Positions 282 through 13,555 of a stretch of DNA of 40,938 nt are shown here, piece by piece. The translations under genes and the position numbers were made by a program. Each line of letters starts with the position of its first letter. Within the stretch, counting starts at the first letter, position 1. The notes beneath the pieces are model-generated. The model was not told the origin of the DNA. It searched no databases and worked only from the letters and a program-made list of their open reading frames with translations. The stretch is from a virus: IMG/VR virus record IMGVR_UViG_3300025294_000013, positions 1 to 40,938 of that record; one strand, written 5' to 3'.

Positions 282-1288
282 ACCCGCCGCAGCTTCGTGG
301 TGGGGGAAATCTGACCTACCTTGAAGATCGCCTCGGCTTGCCGATCGGTTGATAGGTGCGCGTATCGCGCCGTGCTGCGCGGATCCTTGTGCCCCAGTAC
401 CGCGCCCACCGTGTAGAGGTCGACGCCCGCATTCACCATCTCCGAGGCCGTGCTGTGCCTGATGTCGTGGAAGTGCAGCCATGGCATGCCCACGACCACG
501 CATGCGGCCTTCACATTCTTCTGCACCGTGATCTTGGCAACCTTCCTCAGTCTGCGCGCGCACACCGCGACGCGCGGGTGAATCGGCACGATCCTGGGAT
601 CTCCGTTCTTCGTCTTGCCGAGGTGCCAGCGGTCGCCCTGGGGGATGGCCCGCAGGATCTCAGCCAGGCGCATGCCGCTGTAGAACCCGATGCGCAGCGC
701 CATGCGAGCGTTGGCGTTCTTAGTGGCCCGAGCGATGCGCAGCATCTCGGCGCGGTCGATGTAGAACTGGCGCTCGTTCTTCACTTCGGGCACCGTGACC
801 TTGGCGGCCGGGTCGGTCTCGCCGAACCCGTGATGCTTCCACGCCCAGCGGCACGCGGCCGTGAGGTATCGGATGCGTAGCCGTACCGTGGCGTCGGAGA
901 GGGGCCGCGGCTTGTCGCCCTCCTTCTTCGGCACGGACATCGACTTGAGACGCAGCGCCTTGCACACGTCGGGCAGCGCACTCATCGGGCGGCCGGCGTA
1001 AAAGTGCGCGATCAGGGCGAGCTCGCGTGCGACATTCATGCCGGTGGTGAGCTTCGGGATGCGCTCCTTCAGGTAGTAGGTGACAGCCTCTTCGATGAGG
1101 TGATGTCCACCACCGACGCCGTTTGCTTGCGCGTAGAGCTTCGCGCTGGTCTTGCGGTCGTACTCGTCAGCTTGGGCTTGAGTCCAAGTGCGCGGAAGGC
1201 GCTTTCGAGCGCGGACCCTGGATCCGTCGATCCAGCGGTCAAACTCAAAGACGAACTGACCGCGCGCTTTATCCCTTGTGATCGGCAT
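275..1288 (-). CDS. int: Tyrosine-type phage integrase
   Basis: This 337-residue site-specific recombinase catalyses integration and excision at tRNA-Ser. The catalytic set is visible in order: Arg in SGMRLAEIL (about residue 203), Lys in GKTKNGD, the His-x-x-Arg box in HDIRHSTASE, His in LGHKD and the nucleophile Tyr in STARYAHL. An N-terminal arm-binding/core-binding region precedes the catalytic domain. The gene lies directly beside attL and is the last gene of the leftward operon, so expression should come from pL. Its start overlaps the upstream HTH gene (1069-1434) by 220 bases. The start at 1288 gives a natural N-terminus beginning MPITRDKARGQF, but a later start cannot be excluded. 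Confidence 0.97.
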   Translation of the reverse strand: MPITRDKARGQFVFEFDRWIDGSRVRARKRLPRTWTQAQADEYDRKTSAKLYAQANGVGGGHHLIEEAVTYYLKERIPKLTTGMNVARELALIAHFYAGRPMSALPDVCKALRLKSMSVPKKEGDKPRPLSDATVRLRIRYLTAACRWAWKHHGFGETDPAAKVTVPEVKNERQFYIDRAEMLRIARATKNANARMALRIGFYSGMRLAEILRAIPQGDRWHLGKTKNGDPRIVPIHPRVAVCARRLRKVAKITVQKNVKAACVVVGMPWLHFHDIRHSTASEMVNAGVDLYTVGAVLGHKDPRSTARYAHLSTDRQAEAIFKVGQISPTTKLRRVA

Positions 1289-1434
1289 GATGTCTTGTAT
1301 TCCGTGATGTCTTGGGGTTCGAAGCGCAGGGAGCGGCCGAACCGATAGCCAGGCAGGGTGCCAGAGGCGGCCAGATCATAGACCTGGCGTGCGGAGACTC
1401 CGAGTTGTGCCGCTACTTCAGTGGCTGTGAGCAT
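1069..1434 (-). CDS. Excisionase-like helix-turn-helix protein
   Basis: A 121-residue protein. Residues 1-50 (MLTATEVAAQLGVSARQVYD and onward) match the MerR-like helix_turn_helix_17/excisionase fold: a short HTH, a basic turn GYRFGRSLRF, and a helix QDITEYK. The C-terminal 70 residues are Ser/Thr/Lys-rich, low in complexity, and overlap the start of int in another frame. Xis proteins bend DNA at att sites and decide the direction of Int, and the position immediately upstream of int fits that role. The C-terminal half may be poorly constrained because int fixes the other frame. Confidence 0.75.
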   Translation of the reverse strand: MLTATEVAAQLGVSARQVYDLAASGTLPGYRFGRSLRFEPQDITEYKTSCRSQGIKRAVSSSLSLTAGSTDPGSALESAFRALGLKPKLTSTTARPARSSTRKQTASVVDITSSKRLSPTT

Positions 1435-1439
1435 GGCTT

Positions 1440-1688
1440 CTACTTCAGTGAGTTGAGCCAATCTTCGATGTCCCCAGCGCGCCACCGGACGCAGCGCGAG
1501 GACAAACGGATCGGCCGCGGGAAGGTTCCAGCGTCCATGCGCAAATAGATTGCCGATCGCTTTAGACCCACAAGTGCTGAAACGGTCTCGAAGCGAAGCA
1601 GTGCCGCAGGATTGTTTGCGGCTTCGAGGGGCTGTTTTTTCTTTGTCGTCATCTTCAATGCTCCATTGTTTACAGCGTCTTCGCTCAT
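1440..1688 (-). CDS. AlpA-like transcriptional regulator
   Basis: An 82-residue protein. After a short Lys-rich N-terminus, residues 30-80 carry the AlpA/MerR-type HTH: LRFETVSALVGLKRSAIYLR, then G-FPRPIRLSSR, W-A-DIEDWL. AlpA family proteins regulate or help excise integrated elements. The start at 1688 is chosen because ATG overlaps the upstream stop (ATGA) and GGGGGAGAAG precedes it. Together with the next gene it gives two DNA-binding proteins of the excisionase fold just before int; either could be the directionality factor. Confidence 0.8.
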   Translation of the reverse strand: MSEDAVNNGALKMTTKKKQPLEAANNPAALLRFETVSALVGLKRSAIYLRMDAGTFPRPIRLSSRCVRWRAGDIEDWLNSLK

Positions 1689-2182
1689 AGCTTCTCCCCC
1701 CGAACAGCAGCGGCACCAAGCCACTCCAGCAACTTGAGATAGTCCGCGGTGCTTACGAGCGGGCCTGTGTGCTTGCCCTGCAGCATCCAGTTGACTGAGT
1801 TCTGCAGTCGATTCGCAATGCCGTCGCGGTCCTCCAACTCCTTCGCCGCCCGCTCAGTAGCGGCGTCCCATGCTTCCCGAGCGATGTCGGATAAGCGCAG
1901 TACCGTCTCAGGCGATGAGGACGCTGGGCCGTATTTGGGGATCACGTCGCACAGAGGGTGGCCGCGTTCCTTTGCCCAATGCTCGAAAGATACAGCGCCA
2001 TGCGTTGCCACGGAAGCACGTCCTGCCTCGAACATCTTGCGCATCTGTTCGGCGGTAAAGAAGTCGCCCCTGACGAACAGGCGTCGGTCAGTTGGCGTGA
2101 TCTCTCCGAATGCGTCGATGCGGATGTCCGGCTCCGGCATCATCTCCTCAAACGCTCGCTGTGCATCTGGGTGGGCGGTCAT
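1685..2182 (-). CDS. Conserved phage early protein of unknown function
   Basis: A 165-residue soluble protein, start fixed by the ATGA overlap with the upstream gene. Middle residues include SFEHWAKERGHPLCD and a segment LSDIAREAWDAATERAAKEL. The 'AREAWDAAVA' pattern recurs in short early proteins of many phages of Proteobacteria. The C-terminus is a helical segment SVNWMLQGKHTGPLVSTADY followed by LKLLEWLG. No enzyme motif or membrane segment is visible. It belongs to the leftward operon. Confidence 0.75.
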   Translation of the reverse strand: MTAHPDAQRAFEEMMPEPDIRIDAFGEITPTDRRLFVRGDFFTAEQMRKMFEAGRASVATHGAVSFEHWAKERGHPLCDVIPKYGPASSSPETVLRLSDIAREAWDAATERAAKELEDRDGIANRLQNSVNWMLQGKHTGPLVSTADYLKLLEWLGAAAVRGEKL

Positions 2183-4644: not shown

Positions 4645-4943
4645 GGTTGGTCCTTGGAGATTTGCTCGACCTCTTTCAGGCACTTATCACATGGCGTGCA
4701 GCCAGGGCTTTCGAACACGGTGTAGACGAGCCAGCCCGTGCGGTCGATCATCTTCCGTGTGCCTTTGCTGCTACCGGGCTCCGCGCCGCAGAGCGCTTTG
4801 GCTTCGCCATTTCGCTTCAGGTGGCTGCGGTAAGGGTTGCCTTTGATCCGCGCGCCAAAGAGGCCTAGCGACTTGAGATGGGCCACGTCACCATCACTGA
4901 GCGACGGCTCCCAGGTGTTGCGATAGGTGTACATCTCAGCCAT
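4641..4943 (-). CDS. Small Cys-containing early protein
   Basis: A 100-residue protein that ends in an ATGA overlap with the next gene. It contains LKSLGLFGARIKGNPYRSHL, a basic region, and a C-terminal CTPCDKC motif that may bind zinc. The start at 4943 follows GGGAGGGTGGCA; an internal ATG nine bases later is possible. Function unknown. Confidence 0.7.
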   Translation of the reverse strand: MAEMYTYRNTWEPSLSDGDVAHLKSLGLFGARIKGNPYRSHLKRNGEAKALCGAEPGSSKGTRKMIDRTGWLVYTVFESPGCTPCDKCLKEVEQISKDQP

Positions 4944-6132
4944 TGCCACCCTCCCCACCCGCCTGTACTGCTTGCGGAGCGACAGCGAGCATTGCATCCC
5001 ACTCGCCCTTGATCACAGGGGTGCGCGCCTCGGTCTCATCCTTCCCGGCACGGATCTGTTGGAGCGCCTCCTTCAAGCGCTCTCGCTTCACCTGCATGGC
5101 GGCTTCGATCATTGCCGGCGTCAGCTCCTTCGGAACCCACTGCCATGCGGATTCGGCGGGGAGCCTGGACGCAGCCTGCTTGAAGATGACGAGGCAGTCA
5201 CCCCAGCCGCGCGTGTAGTCGCTGACCGCGCCGGACTTCTCGTCGCCGTAGCTCATGGCAGAGTGCGAGGCTTCGGCGCGGCGGACACTCTCTCGAATGA
5301 TGCTGACCCACTGCCACCCGCTTTCGGCTGGGGCGCTGGAGGGCGAGGAGGCGAGGAGCTCATCGATCTTCGCGAGCAGGGCGTTCGCTCCATTGGGGTC
5401 TTGTTTGACGCCACTAGAGTCCGTCCAACGCGTGTTCTTGAGCGTGTACTCGTGGACGAAGAAGCGTGCGTGATTCAGCAATGCCATCACCGGCTGCGCT
5501 ACCTCTGCGGCTGGAGTGCCAGGAGGGAAGCGGTGCAGCTTCAGAACCTCGTTGGCGATGATGTTGAGCGTGGCTGCGAATGATCCGCCCGGGCGTTGCG
5601 CAGCGAATTGCCTGAGCGTCAGATTGATATTTGCCCGCACATCGCCACCGTAGGTTTTCGTGGCAAGGTCGAAGTAGCGGCGCTCCTGCTCGTCTTCCGG
5701 AATAGGTAAATATCCAGCCGGCGGGCCTTCGCACTGCTGTGCCGCTACCTCTGCGGCTGGGGCGCTGGGAACGGAGGGGGCGGTGTAGAGCGCGAGGCTG
5801 AATACATCGTCTCGATGGCTTTGCACCCGGGCCGACCATTCTTGCTCGGCACCCTCGTCATTCGGCAGCAGGATCACAGGATTCGCATAGGCCACCGCCA
5901 CCGCTCCAGGATCTGCGGGCGTGGCATCGGGCACGGCCTCTTCATCGGTCACACCAAGGTAGGTGCAACCTTCTTCCGGTAGGTCGGTGTAGTGGGCATA
6001 GAGGCCCTTGCCGGAGTGGCCAGTCGTGACCTGCAGTGTGATCTCGGAGGGCTCGCCGCCGAACATCGCCAGCAGGTCGGTTGCCTGCTTGAAGTCGATG
6101 CGCACTGCTGCGCTCTTGTCGGTAGAGGTCAT
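4936..6132 (-). CDS. Large mosaic early protein with repeated linkers
   Basis: A 398-residue protein, start fixed by ATGA overlap. It is a string of short modules joined by Ala/Pro-rich linkers that recur: APAAEVAAQ and TPAAEVAQ, and AESGWQWV and AESAWQWVPKELTP. Modules include a region SEITLQVTTGHSGKGLYAHY, a 'ERRYFDLATKTYG' module, a 'LLNHARFFVHEYTLK' module, and a terminal ELTPAMIEAAMQ ... EWDAMLAVAP module. Such bead-like early proteins are common in phages and are thought to be reshuffled by recombination. No function is known. Confidence 0.72.
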   Translation of the reverse strand: MTSTDKSAAVRIDFKQATDLLAMFGGEPSEITLQVTTGHSGKGLYAHYTDLPEEGCTYLGVTDEEAVPDATPADPGAVAVAYANPVILLPNDEGAEQEWSARVQSHRDDVFSLALYTAPSVPSAPAAEVAAQQCEGPPAGYLPIPEDEQERRYFDLATKTYGGDVRANINLTLRQFAAQRPGGSFAATLNIIANEVLKLHRFPPGTPAAEVAQPVMALLNHARFFVHEYTLKNTRWTDSSGVKQDPNGANALLAKIDELLASSPSSAPAESGWQWVSIIRESVRRAEASHSAMSYGDEKSGAVSDYTRGWGDCLVIFKQAASRLPAESAWQWVPKELTPAMIEAAMQVKRERLKEALQQIRAGKDETEARTPVIKGEWDAMLAVAPQAVQAGGEGGNG

Positions 6133-7180: not shown

Positions 7181-7813
7181 TCAGTACGGGTTGGAGTCGT
7201 CTTCGGGCTCTGCCGTGGACTCGGGTTCGGGCGTCGGTGCCGGGGCAGGCTCGGCCCGCTTCTTCAGCGCCTGCGCACGCGCCGCATAGGCCTGCTGTGC
7301 ACGCTCGATGTCGGCCGGCGCGGTGAGTTCCATCGCCATCTTCTTGGCGCGGTCCATGTCGGCCCGATTCATCGCCGATTCGATGGCTTCGAGCACCGGC
7401 GCCAGCGTGGCGGTCTTCAGCACGTCGATGCTGTGCAGCGCCTTCTTGCCCTTCGTCGCCGTCAAGTTCACCTTGATCGGCTTGTCGATGTGGCTGAGCG
7501 CACGGATGCGAATACCGCCGACGGTCATCCCGCCGAAGCGCACCTCGGCGTCGTGGTAGAGCGTCATCGAGCGACCAACCCATGCGCGGCCGTCCTCACC
7601 CCAGGCGAAGATCAGCAGCTTGCGCATGGTCTTGCAGGGCTTGTAGGGCCGGCCTTCGTCGTTCGGGTAGTGCAGGATGACCGGCTGCTCCTCGCTGGTG
7701 CCCATGCGGACCTCGGACACGGTGATGGTCATGTCCTGCGTCAGCAGCTGCTCGGCATTCAGCTGGTCCGACTTCGGCACGATGGTGCGCCGCAGATCGC
7801 TGATGTCATTCAT
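7181..7813 (-). CDS. Conserved phage protein paired with RecE-like exonuclease
   Basis: A 210-residue protein that overlaps the exonuclease gene by 8 bases. The core reads MRKLLIFAWGEDGRAWVGRS, LYHDAEVRFGGMTVGGIRIR, then ALSHIDKPIKVNLTATKGKK, a pattern I recognise from phage proteins encoded next to recombination nucleases. The C-terminal 50 residues form a long Ala-rich helix and an acidic Pro-rich tail (PAPTPEPESTAEPEDD) like the acidic tips of ssDNA-binding proteins. A role as single-strand binding or annealing partner of the exonuclease is plausible but not shown; no RecT, Erf or Red-beta motif is visible. Confidence 0.78.
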   Translation of the reverse strand: MNDISDLRRTIVPKSDQLNAEQLLTQDMTITVSEVRMGTSEEQPVILHYPNDEGRPYKPCKTMRKLLIFAWGEDGRAWVGRSMTLYHDAEVRFGGMTVGGIRIRALSHIDKPIKVNLTATKGKKALHSIDVLKTATLAPVLEAIESAMNRADMDRAKKMAMELTAPADIERAQQAYAARAQALKKRAEPAPAPTPEPESTAEPEDDSNPY

Positions 7814-8723
7814 AAGAGAACTCCACTTCTTGAGAGGTGATTGCGTAAGGGGGAAGGTCGACCGTTTCGGTAGCGGTCGTGTAGCTGGGCCACGTGTTCG
7901 TGCGCAGACACTCGGCGTAGGTGTCGAGCAGGTAGCGGTGCTGCAGCGCGCCTTCGTGGCGGGACTCGTCGCCCAGCTGGTACGAGGCCGCGAGGAAGGG
8001 CCATGTGGTCTCGACGACAACGAACACGAAGCCGACGACTTCGAGGCCCGATGCGCGCGCGTAGCCCTCGCTGTACCAGGAGTCTTGCAGGTGGTACTTC
8101 TTCTCAACGATCTGTCGCGTGAACTTTCGGGGCGTGGCTTCGCTGAACGTCTTAACGTCGACGAGCACAGCCTGGTGCGCATTGATCGGCACCACGAGGT
8201 CAGGACGGCAGCGGCACAGCACGCCGGTGAGCTGATCGACCCAGTAGGCCGACACTTCGGTCTTGCCGCGCTTGAGCATCTCGGCCATCGACAAGCCGCC
8301 CCAGACGTTCTGCAGCGAGCGCATGCTGTGCGCCTGGCACATGGCCGCGTGGCGCTGCTCGGCGTTGATGATCCGCGCGCCGGCGTGCTCCTTGTTCCAA
8401 GTCGTCCACCACGCTTTCGCCGCGGTGCTCGACTCGTTGGAGTTCACGGCCTTCCACTGCGCGGGCGTGGGCCGGTTGGGCGCGTCCTTCGGCAGCACGG
8501 CGTAGCGCTTGTTGAACTCCGCGGGTTCGAGCAGCGCGCAGTGCGCGAGGTTGCCTTCGAGCTGGCCGGCCTTCTCGGTGCGCGCCGGTCGATCAGGATC
8601 GAGGTGCAGCGCGTAGAACATCGCAGGGCAGCGCGCGAGGTCGTCCAAGCCGCTCTTGCTGATGCTCAGGCTGTTGCCGTGATACTCGTTGATATCAAGG
8701 CCGTAATAGACGCCTGGCTTCAT
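7806..8723 (-). CDS. RecE-like (exonuclease VIII type) PD-(D/E)XK nuclease
   Basis: A 305-residue protein. The N-terminal KPGVYYGLDINEYHG and SISKSGLDDLARCPAMFYAL are characteristic of the exodeoxyribonuclease VIII / DUF3799 catalytic family. The active site is visible as RCRPDLVV followed by AVLVDVKTFSEA (Asp ... Asp-x-Lys). It digests dsDNA ends for phage homologous recombination. I take ATG at 8723 because it overlaps the HNH stop as ATGA, with GGAG 7 bases upstream. The 5' end of the gene appears rearranged: an RecE-like N-terminal peptide also begins the upstream HNH protein. Confidence 0.88.
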   Translation of the reverse strand: MKPGVYYGLDINEYHGNSLSISKSGLDDLARCPAMFYALHLDPDRPARTEKAGQLEGNLAHCALLEPAEFNKRYAVLPKDAPNRPTPAQWKAVNSNESSTAAKAWWTTWNKEHAGARIINAEQRHAAMCQAHSMRSLQNVWGGLSMAEMLKRGKTEVSAYWVDQLTGVLCRCRPDLVVPINAHQAVLVDVKTFSEATPRKFTRQIVEKKYHLQDSWYSEGYARASGLEVVGFVFVVVETTWPFLAASYQLGDESRHEGALQHRYLLDTYAECLRTNTWPSYTTATETVDLPPYAITSQEVEFSYE

Positions 8724-9298
8724 AGCCAACTCCAGTCGCGACGGAGCTTGATGCGGCTGACAGTTGCCGAGGCAATGCCATGATCAGCTGCAATCAGTGC
8801 GTGCTTGCGTTGGTCTGAGCGAATGCTCAACACTTGTTGGACGGTCAACTTTGATTGGCCGTGCTTTTCTCCACGATTGGCTGTCCCATGAAGCACACGG
8901 TCCGCCAGGTTGGCTTGCTGGGTTGCCCAACGAAGATTGCTCAACATGCAGTTCGTTGGGATGCCGTCGTTGTGTGCCCCGACCATCCCATTGGGTTGCG
9001 GCCCAACGAACGCGCAAAGGACAAGGCGATGAACCCGAAACGACTGGCTGACATTCCCGCGGTAGAGCATCACTTGGGGATAGCCTGCATTGAGCGAAGG
9101 GATCTTGATGCGCGCAGGAAGCGTCTTCATGCACCCGTTGCGCATACTGATAGTCCTCGCCTCTGAGCGCACGCGCCCAGCATCCGACACCGCATATAGG
9201 CCTTCAAACCCAATGACCGGAAGCCATCGTTCGATCGGCAGGCCCTCGTAGATGCCGGGCTTCGTCGGCGAGGCGAATGCAGTCTCGACGGCGCCCAT
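8720..9298 (-). CDS. HNH homing endonuclease (NUMOD4) with RecE-like N-terminal leader
   Basis: A 192-residue protein. Residues about 25-47 (WLPVIGFEGLYAVSDAGRVR) are a NUMOD4 DNA-binding motif. The HNH core spans about 95-130 (FRVHRLVLCAFVG, AHNDGIPTNCMLSNLRW). The C-terminus carries an HTH-like segment (KLTVQQVLSIRSDQRKHALI). The first ~23 residues do not belong to this family: TKPGIYEGLPIE resembles the N-terminus of exonuclease VIII proteins, including the adjacent gene (KPGVYYGLDINE). The gene seems to have landed in the 5' end of recE and captured its start. Either ATG 9298 or GTG 9301 could initiate; GGAGGG lies just upstream. Confidence 0.88.
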   Translation of the reverse strand: MGAVETAFASPTKPGIYEGLPIERWLPVIGFEGLYAVSDAGRVRSEARTISMRNGCMKTLPARIKIPSLNAGYPQVMLYRGNVSQSFRVHRLVLCAFVGPQPNGMVGAHNDGIPTNCMLSNLRWATQQANLADRVLHGTANRGEKHGQSKLTVQQVLSIRSDQRKHALIAADHGIASATVSRIKLRRDWSWL

Positions 9299-9507
9299 CA
9301 CGAAGCCCTCCGCAGCGGGATCGGCCGCAGGGTGTTGAGCACCTCGTCGACATAGCTGTCGCCGGTGCTGGTGGAGCCCTGGTCGAACGCAGCGCGGGCC
9401 ATCTTGAGCCAGCGGATGGCCTGGTCGATCTCGTCCAGCTCGACGAACTCGCCTTCGGGCTGCGGGACGAATGCGCGGTGCTCGGTGGTGCTGATTGCGT
9501 TGTGCAT
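9298..9507 (-). CDS. Small hypothetical early protein
   Basis: A 69-residue acidic protein starting MHNAISTTEHRAFVPQPEGE, then LDEIDQAIRWLKMARAAFDQ and a short helical end. It overlaps the HNH/RecE leader (TGATG), so it belonged to the operon before the HNH insertion. No family recognised. Confidence 0.68.
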   Translation of the reverse strand: MHNAISTTEHRAFVPQPEGEFVELDEIDQAIRWLKMARAAFDQGSTSTGDSYVDEVLNTLRPIPLRRAS

Positions 9508-12365: not shown

Positions 12366-12758
12366 ATGGTCTCCCCCGTTATCACCAGTTCTCAGAACGG
12401 CGCGAAGGAGCAGCTGACGCTCGACTTCGTGCCCGGGCTGCTGGAACGCTACCGCTCCCTGCGCGAGTGCGTCGGCTCAGGCATCTACCAGCGTGGCCTC
12501 GGCCGCGTCGCCATCGACCTGGACCTCGCACCCGGCAACCTGTCCGTGCAGATCAGCGACGACCCCTCGCGCAAGTTCAGCGTCGACAGCCTTGAGCGCT
12601 ACATCGAGAAGACGGGCGACAACACGCCCATCATGTACCTGATCGAGAAGTTCCTGGCGCCCGACGCGCGGCCCAAGAACGCGCACGAGGTGCAGGAGAT
12701 CCGCAACCAGCTGGCGCAGGCGATGCGCAAGCTTGAGGCGCTGGGTGGTGCAGTATGA
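12366..12758 (+). CDS. CII-position regulator-like protein
   Basis: A 130-residue protein. Residues 20-75 (LLERYRSLRECVGSGIYQRG, AIDLDLAPGNLSVQISDD, RKFSVDSLERYIEKTGD) read like a CII/HTH domain: 'DLDL-PGNLS..L..' as the HTH and 'D-LE-Y-E-TGD-TPI-YL-EKFL' after it. A helical tail closes it. Position after cro and the tR1-like terminator matches CII in other temperate phages. Function is inferred from pattern and place. Confidence 0.7.
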   Translation: MVSPVITSSQNGAKEQLTLDFVPGLLERYRSLRECVGSGIYQRGLGRVAIDLDLAPGNLSVQISDDPSRKFSVDSLERYIEKTGDNTPIMYLIEKFLAPDARPKNAHEVQEIRNQLAQAMRKLEALGGAV

Positions 12759-13555
12759 GGTCCGAGACGATCGGCAACGCGACGCTGTACCACGGCGAGG
12801 CGCTTGAAGTACTGCAGTCTCTCGAGCCGGGCACCGCGGACGCGGTCATCACCGATCCGCCGTACTCGAGCGGTGGTGCATTCCGAGGCGATCGCGCCGT
12901 GGACACCAAGACCAAGTACCTGAGCACTGGATCCGGCAACCGCGAGAAGACCTCGGACTTCGGCGGCGACAACCGCGACCAGCGTTCGTTTCACTTCTGG
13001 TCAACGCTGTGGTCTGCCGCCGCGCTGCGGGCTTCGAAACCAGGCGCGCCCGCCATGTTCTTCACGGACTGGCGCCAACTCCCCATCTCCACCGACTACT
13101 TGCAGGCGGGCGGCTGGGTGTGGCGCGGCATCGTGCCGTGGGTGAAGAAGTCGCCGCGGCCCCAGATGGGGCGCTTCACGTCAGCCGCCGAGTACGTCGT
13201 CTGGGGTTCAGCGGGGCCGATGCCTGTCGATCGCGGCGTCGGCTGCCTGCCGGGCTTCTACGAGTTCCATGTACCGGGCGAACGCGAACACGTAACTCAG
13301 AAGCCGGTACCGCTCATGGCCGCGATGGTCGAGATCTGCGAGCCCGGCGGGCTGGTGCTGGATCCCTTCATGGGCTCGGGAACCACCGGCGTGGCAGCGC
13401 TGCAGCTCGGCCGCCGCTTCATCGGCTGCGAGCAGAGCCTGCAGTACTTCGACGTCGCGTGCCGGCGAATCGAGGAAGCCATCACCGCCGGCCGCATGTT
13501 CGATGAGGCCCAGCCGCCGCTGCAGGGCTTGCTGGTGCCGGAAGGAGTCGCATGA
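12755..13555 (+). CDS. Beta-class DNA methyltransferase (orphan)
   Basis: A 266-residue protein. Motif IV DPPYSSGG at about 34-41 precedes motif I DPFMGSGTTGVAAL at about 202, the order of the beta class (N6-adenine or N4-cytosine). The C-terminal part FIGCEQSLQYFDVACRRI completes the SAM pocket. No restriction gene is adjacent, so it probably protects phage DNA against host restriction or tunes replication. ATG overlaps the previous stop (ATGA). The target sequence cannot be predicted. Confidence 0.92.
   Translation: MRSETIGNATLYHGEALEVLQSLEPGTADAVITDPPYSSGGAFRGDRAVDTKTKYLSTGSGNREKTSDFGGDNRDQRSFHFWSTLWSAAALRASKPGAPAMFFTDWRQLPISTDYLQAGGWVWRGIVPWVKKSPRPQMGRFTSAAEYVVWGSAGPMPVDRGVGCLPGFYEFHVPGEREHVTQKPVPLMAAMVEICEPGGLVLDPFMGSGTTGVAALQLGRRFIGCEQSLQYFDVACRRIEEAITAGRMFDEAQPPLQGLLVPEGVA

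Follow-up and report, generated by a model that had tools for sequence, protein, structure and literature searches.

An HNH homing endonuclease gene has probably captured the start of a phage recE gene and supplied a replacement 5′ end

Comparison of an HNH endonuclease gene with the neighbouring exonuclease gene indicated that an HNH cassette has probably entered recE after about codon 23, taken over the ribosome site and start of this gene and supplied it with a replacement 5′ end. The window, meaning the whole stretch of DNA analysed, was a virus record of 40,938 bases. A temperate phage was indicated by an integrase (275-1288), a DNA methyltransferase (PHROG 67, 12755-13555) and podovirus-like virion genes. 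An earlier note on this DNA had observed that the leader of the HNH protein appears to be the 5′ end of recE. This observation was confirmed, and its coordinates proved exact. In addition, a second IMG/VR contig from a metagenome assembly showed 100% identity across a stretch of 4,788 bp that contains the locus, so an assembly chimera was unlikely. The features are given in Table 1.

Table 1. Features at the window locus and at the loci with repeated gene ends
Feature	Position	Strand	Basis
Upstream ORF, 69 aa from ATG 9507	9298..9507	-	sequence, ORF list
Ribosome-binding site GGAGG, 8 nt upstream of ATG 9298	9307..9311	-	sequence
Candidate captured recE 5′ stub MGAVETAFASPTKPGIYEGLPIE, now HNH leader	9230..9298	-	profile, DNA match, empty-site alignment
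NUMOD4-HNH endonuclease core, without its own start codon	8720..9229	-	Pfam, family alignment, composition
ATGA overlap of recE start and HNH stop, 4 nt	8720..8723	-	sequence
Candidate replacement recE 5′ end (MKPGVYYGLDINEY)	8682..8723	-	composition, identity to L004
recE-like exonuclease VIII, 305 aa, PD-(D/E)XK (DUF3799), intact frame	7806..8723	-	PHROG, Pfam
L169: HNH leader MPTLDTVDTGSA in frame; Sak4-like ATPase restart MPSLDTVDTGSA 4 nt past HNH stop			
L231: HNH leader MMRELRPHQIQA; SF2 helicase restart MNRSLWPHQVDG on ATGA overlap			
L202: antisense HNH; 509-aa phage protein with remnant MVTPKFKTTS and restored start MVTPKFKTTS	3085 (remnant); 2462 (restored start)		
L094: 3′ case; Holliday junction resolvase (PHROG 1770), remnant LMAVAVTYADTRQSEAA after HNH gene			
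L054: 3′ case; Endonuclease I, HNH antisense between copies, C-terminal 46 codons duplicated, 30/46 aa	2297-3692		
L260: 3′ case; small HNH-type gene			
L227: 3′ case; HNH C-terminus WAHIRREKF copies upstream terminase-like C-terminus KAHIRREKF	1198-1760		

The HNH reading frame ran on the minus strand from an ATG at 9298 to a stop at 8720, with an alternative GTG start at 9301. Its product matched NUMOD4 (PF07463, E = 1.9e-11) from residue 24 and HNH_3 (PF13392, E = 3.6e-10) from residue 89, both above the curated cut-offs, and the conserved H and N columns were retained in the family alignment. The gene was assigned as a putative free-standing NUMOD4-HNH homing endonuclease. The GC content of its core was 57%, compared to 65% for the record. 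The first 23 residues were foreign to the NUMOD4-HNH family. The best phage homologues aligned only from about residue 19-26 onward, except for one weak match (32% identity) that started at residue 1. At 85 of the 88 loci of the first survey batch, a start codon lay 10 or fewer residues from the NUMOD4 tryptophan, whereas the nearest one in the window was 24 residues away. The same limit of 10 residues from NUMOD4 held at 138 of 149 non-redundant loci, and the 11 exceptions included the window (24), L169 (16) and L231 (13). The HNH gene has lost its own start, which is replaced by that of recE, and this supported the claim that the old recE start had been taken. The stop codon of the upstream ORF (TGA, 9300-9298) overlapped the leader ATG as TGATG, and the GGAGG in front of it would be the captured initiation region of recE.

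The leader was then compared with the N-termini of exonuclease VIII proteins. A 12-column profile was made from the recE N-termini of relatives, with the window left out, and 67,041 six-frame positions were scanned. The start of recE itself scored 39.1 bits and the HNH leader (TKPGIYEGLPIE, 9265) scored 34.0 bits, while the next best position reached 15.0 bits. The match was also seen in the DNA, where the leader (9267-9231) was 86% identical over 37 bp to the recE start of L004. L004 and L005 carried a recE that was 83% identical to that of the window at the amino acid level, with a single start and no HNH gene in front. Over the 33 nt common to both window copies, the leader was identical to L004 at 28 positions and the present recE start at 22. 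The two copies matched each other at 22/33 nt (67%) and were homologous over at least 11 codons.

An HNH-free sister of the window phage was not found, and the upstream ORF occurred only in the near-identical L120. The empty site was therefore inferred from the relatives at 83% amino acid identity. It was reconstructed, for search only, by fusing the leader with the part of recE that begins at YHG. This joined sequence aligned from residue 1 to an HNH-free Bordetella phage exonuclease VIII. Against relatives whose N-terminus is longer, it also scored higher than the present start (for example 107 vs 96 bits for L008, 143 vs 132 bits for L023). The length of the leader from Met to PIE was equal to the N-terminus of the Bordetella-type group (MNAITEPVAMIDAPRVIVGLPIE), and by this equal length it is plausible that the first 12 residues (MGAVETAFASPT) were also derived from recE. 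The DNA identity of the first 36 nt to the Bordetella-type extensions was at background, so that only KPGIYEGLPIE was firmly assigned to recE. These results supported the proposal of the earlier note that the HNH gene had landed just after the first codons of recE. The note had named two observations that would speak against it, and neither was made. The same leader was absent from all other HNH genes among the 149 (29.8 bits in the window, at most 12.9 bits elsewhere), and exonuclease relatives shared the N-terminus. An apparent leader match in Brujita gp46, where the HNH gene lies two genes upstream of the exonuclease, was rejected because this protein starts directly at NUMOD4.

The recE product was assigned to exonuclease VIII (PHROG 412, E = 1.6e-70; PF12684, E = 4.5e-22), and the RPD...DVKT core was present. 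The target gene had been said to be kept, and its frame agreed with this. The present product begins MKPGVYYGLDINEYHG. The described restart of recE at a new ATG overlapping the HNH stop was supported, but this description understated the arrangement, in which a second, diverged 5′ coding copy follows the HNH gene and which recurs elsewhere. Since the leader resembles L004 more closely than the present start does, the latter was taken as the second copy, placed after the HNH stop. Over its initial 42 nt, recE had a GC content of 45%, a value in the bottom 0.8% among 42-nt windows across the record, while the rest of recE had 65%. Identity to L004 was 29/42 nt at the recE start and 705/838 nt over the remaining gene, a comparison based on 42 nt, with 40 of 796 windows within recE equally diverged from L004. 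L004 and L005 likewise differed more from each other at the recE 5′ end. Taken alone, the right-hand junction gave a modest indication.

A GGAG at 8733-8730, six bases before the recE ATG, could serve recE. The ATGA overlap suggested that translation of HNH and recE may be coupled, and such overlaps were mildly enriched after HNH genes (27/73 vs 58/252 TGA-ending ORFs, p = 0.02). No close donor for the imported end was found in viral_contigs, genome_contigs or phages. The scans of genome_contigs gave no match with the recE protein of the window, and only three distant Xenorhabdus matches with that of L004. No plasmid match was found.

The 67% GC of the stub, the GGAGG, the TGATG coupling and the likeness to L004, together with the odd GC of the present start, suggested that the stub is resident and the present start imported. 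The enzyme would cleave the resident recE close to the junction, at about 9230, near ...CTGCCGATCGA. Repair from a related donor phage, guided by homology on the recE side, would bring in the HNH gene together with the recE 5′ end next to it, and the other side would be joined at the cut without homology. The resident 5′ stub would be left upstream and become the HNH leader. Since homology would be used on one side only, the stub should mark the cut. The imported 5′ end would keep recE functional, and this differently spelled copy should resist the enzyme and block re-cutting. A single mRNA would yield both proteins, through translation that is coupled or re-initiated.

A survey was performed for recurrence of this arrangement. 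The 200 nt flanks on either side of 145 non-redundant NUMOD4-HNH genes were compared by ungapped translated alignment, with flanks from different loci as the null, and GC-rich low-complexity matches were filtered out before counting. The alignment of diverse HNH proteins was too variable for use in scanning. A flank score of at least 40 was observed for 9 of the 145 HNH genes vs 0.93 expected, and a score of at least 50 for 4 vs 0.06 expected. At a score of at least 43, there were 7 of 145 HNH genes and none of 400 control ORFs from the same loci (Fisher p = 8e-5). A score of at least 40 was also reached by 5 of the 400 controls, so single weak cases prove little alone. The flank score of the window was a modest 39, and its case stands on the independent profile test. 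The recurrent cases were two further start captures (L169 and L231), one antisense 5′ case (L202) and four 3′ cases. Flank repeats at L105, L222 and L257 were judged to be chance or unclear and were excluded from the count.

The copies in L169 were identical at 28/36 nt and 11/12 aa, with 6 of 7 differing codons synonymous. Those in L202 were identical at 22/30 nt and 10/10 aa, and all 6 differing codons were synonymous. HNH-free relatives of the L231 helicase begin MKLKLRPHQ or ..LTLRPHQ. In L227, the HNH C-terminus appears to be the displaced HIRREKF end, in which case the stop codon and gene end would have been captured. The recurrence suggests that repair of the invaded gene is frequent among such elements.

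An opposite polarity was considered, in which the resident recE kept its present start and the element carried in an HNH gene whose fusion to a foreign recE stub dated from an earlier host. The present start does resemble other phage starts, such as MKPGVYPG in Persinger, and in L242 an HNH gene is paired with exonuclease VIII and has no stub. However, the GC content of the stub was record-like and the stub was coupled to the upstream ORF, unlike the present start with its low GC. The stub was also nearer to the HNH-free L004, and a stub in the coupled position was found in L169 and L231. This explanation was therefore unlikely in view of composition, of the likeness to L004 and of the place that the stub takes in the operon at three loci.

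We gave a still lower probability to the idea that the recE 5′ end was duplicated in tandem at its own site, during or after the insertion, and then drifted, with no import. In its favour, both copies abut the HNH gene and share homology over their common codons. However, the two copies were only 67% identical, although the stub, which is no longer selected as recE, stays close to the recE of relatives and makes the event look recent. Drift in place conflicts with such low identity beside a well-preserved stub. In addition, the copies in L169 and L202 differed almost only synonymously, which fits a functional homologue and not a drifting relic.

Intron ORFs are commonly joined in frame to the upstream exon, and the leader could be such an exon if the HNH ORF lay in a group I intron, an intein or a gene 60-like hop. 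This was highly improbable. The HNH gene occupies the entire insert and leaves no room for a ribozyme, and its ORF terminates in a stop. No intron was matched in Rfam, and no Hint domain was found in the HNH ORF with Pfam. Splicing would also be unnecessary, because the recE 5′ end is present a second time, in full, beyond the HNH gene. It was hardly credible that an ordinary N-terminal extension resembled recE by chance, since the shared block, though short (11-12 residues), stood far above the next best position of the profile scan, adjoined recE, matched at the DNA level and belonged to a pattern repeated at other loci.

Capture of the resident recE start with import of a replacement, the preferred explanation, was compared with known systems. 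The closest precedent was the fungal mitochondrial mORFs, which form hybrid genes in Allomyces macrogynus (atp6) and Glomus sp. (atp6, atp9, cox2, nad3) (PMC3630166). In these, a foreign C-terminus arrives with the endonuclease gene, beyond which the native end persists; compared to a close relative, the imported ends were 64-81% and the native ends 91-98% identical in nucleotides (PMC3630166). The window was similar in that the endonuclease gene is flanked by two homologous copies of one target-gene end. The more diverged end is likewise the one in use, with 67% vs 85% identity to L004 over just 33 nt. In contrast, the mORFs described in PMC3630166 are C-terminal and encode LAGLIDADG or GIY-YIG enzymes, whereas the window is from a phage, has an HNH enzyme and concerns a 5′ end, with the start codon of the target captured. 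The phage HNH form and the 5′ start-capture version would be what is new here.

The free-standing HNH and GIY genes of T4-type phages (mobE, mobA, segF), as described in the part of PMC2988022 used here, overlap their neighbours by a few bases, lie beside conserved DNA-metabolism genes and show flank co-conversion. The HNH gene of the window is similarly free-standing, with an overlap of a few bases and a DNA-metabolism neighbour. The T4-type insertions in that part of the source are intergenic or split a gene into two polypeptides (Aeh1 nrdA, T4 gene 60). They differ from the window in that no duplicated, replaced gene end is described in the same part (PMC2988022). In the literature searched, mostly without subscription papers, no phage example of a homing gene carrying a gene end was found.

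Free-standing homing endonucleases are thought to be harmless because of their intergenic, intron or intein positions. The window and the seven other loci pointed to another route, which is insertion into a coding end with a replacement end supplied. This would be a natural counterpart of engineered 'home-and-rescue' drives. It would explain HNH genes that overlap the starts of recombination genes, and chimeric target genes between phages would arise. The cut site of each enzyme would be predictable from the stub boundary. It is possible, though somewhat short of an even chance, that phage NUMOD4-HNH genes form a general 'cut, insert and rescue' class. Such elements would carry a differently spelled, cleavage-resistant target end, 5′ or 3′ and in either orientation, and would need neither intron nor intein to invade the interiors of essential genes, with the stub marking the cut.

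Two further loci were compared with the window. In L242 (2465-4008), a NUMOD4-HNH gene immediately precedes an exonuclease VIII gene of full length (PHROG 412) and overlaps it as ATGA. In Xanthomonas phage SAC (L036, 1992-2489), an unannotated NUMOD4-HNH gene lies between a recombinase gene and a YqaJ-type exonuclease gene and overlaps both by a few bases. Both resembled the window in HNH family, recombination-exonuclease neighbour and overlap. In both, however, the HNH gene begins at a start of its own and lacks a leader derived from the exonuclease. The pair in L242 is possibly a donor-like arrangement. Separately, a NUMOD4-HNH gene was located between a YqaJ-type exonuclease gene and a PHROG 11517 gene in L117 (2492-3693), and the gene after recE in the window (7181-7822) is likewise of the PHROG 11517 family. 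In L025, a prophage-like contig, recE was followed some 1.6 kb downstream by a second distant match to HNH (4890-5204).
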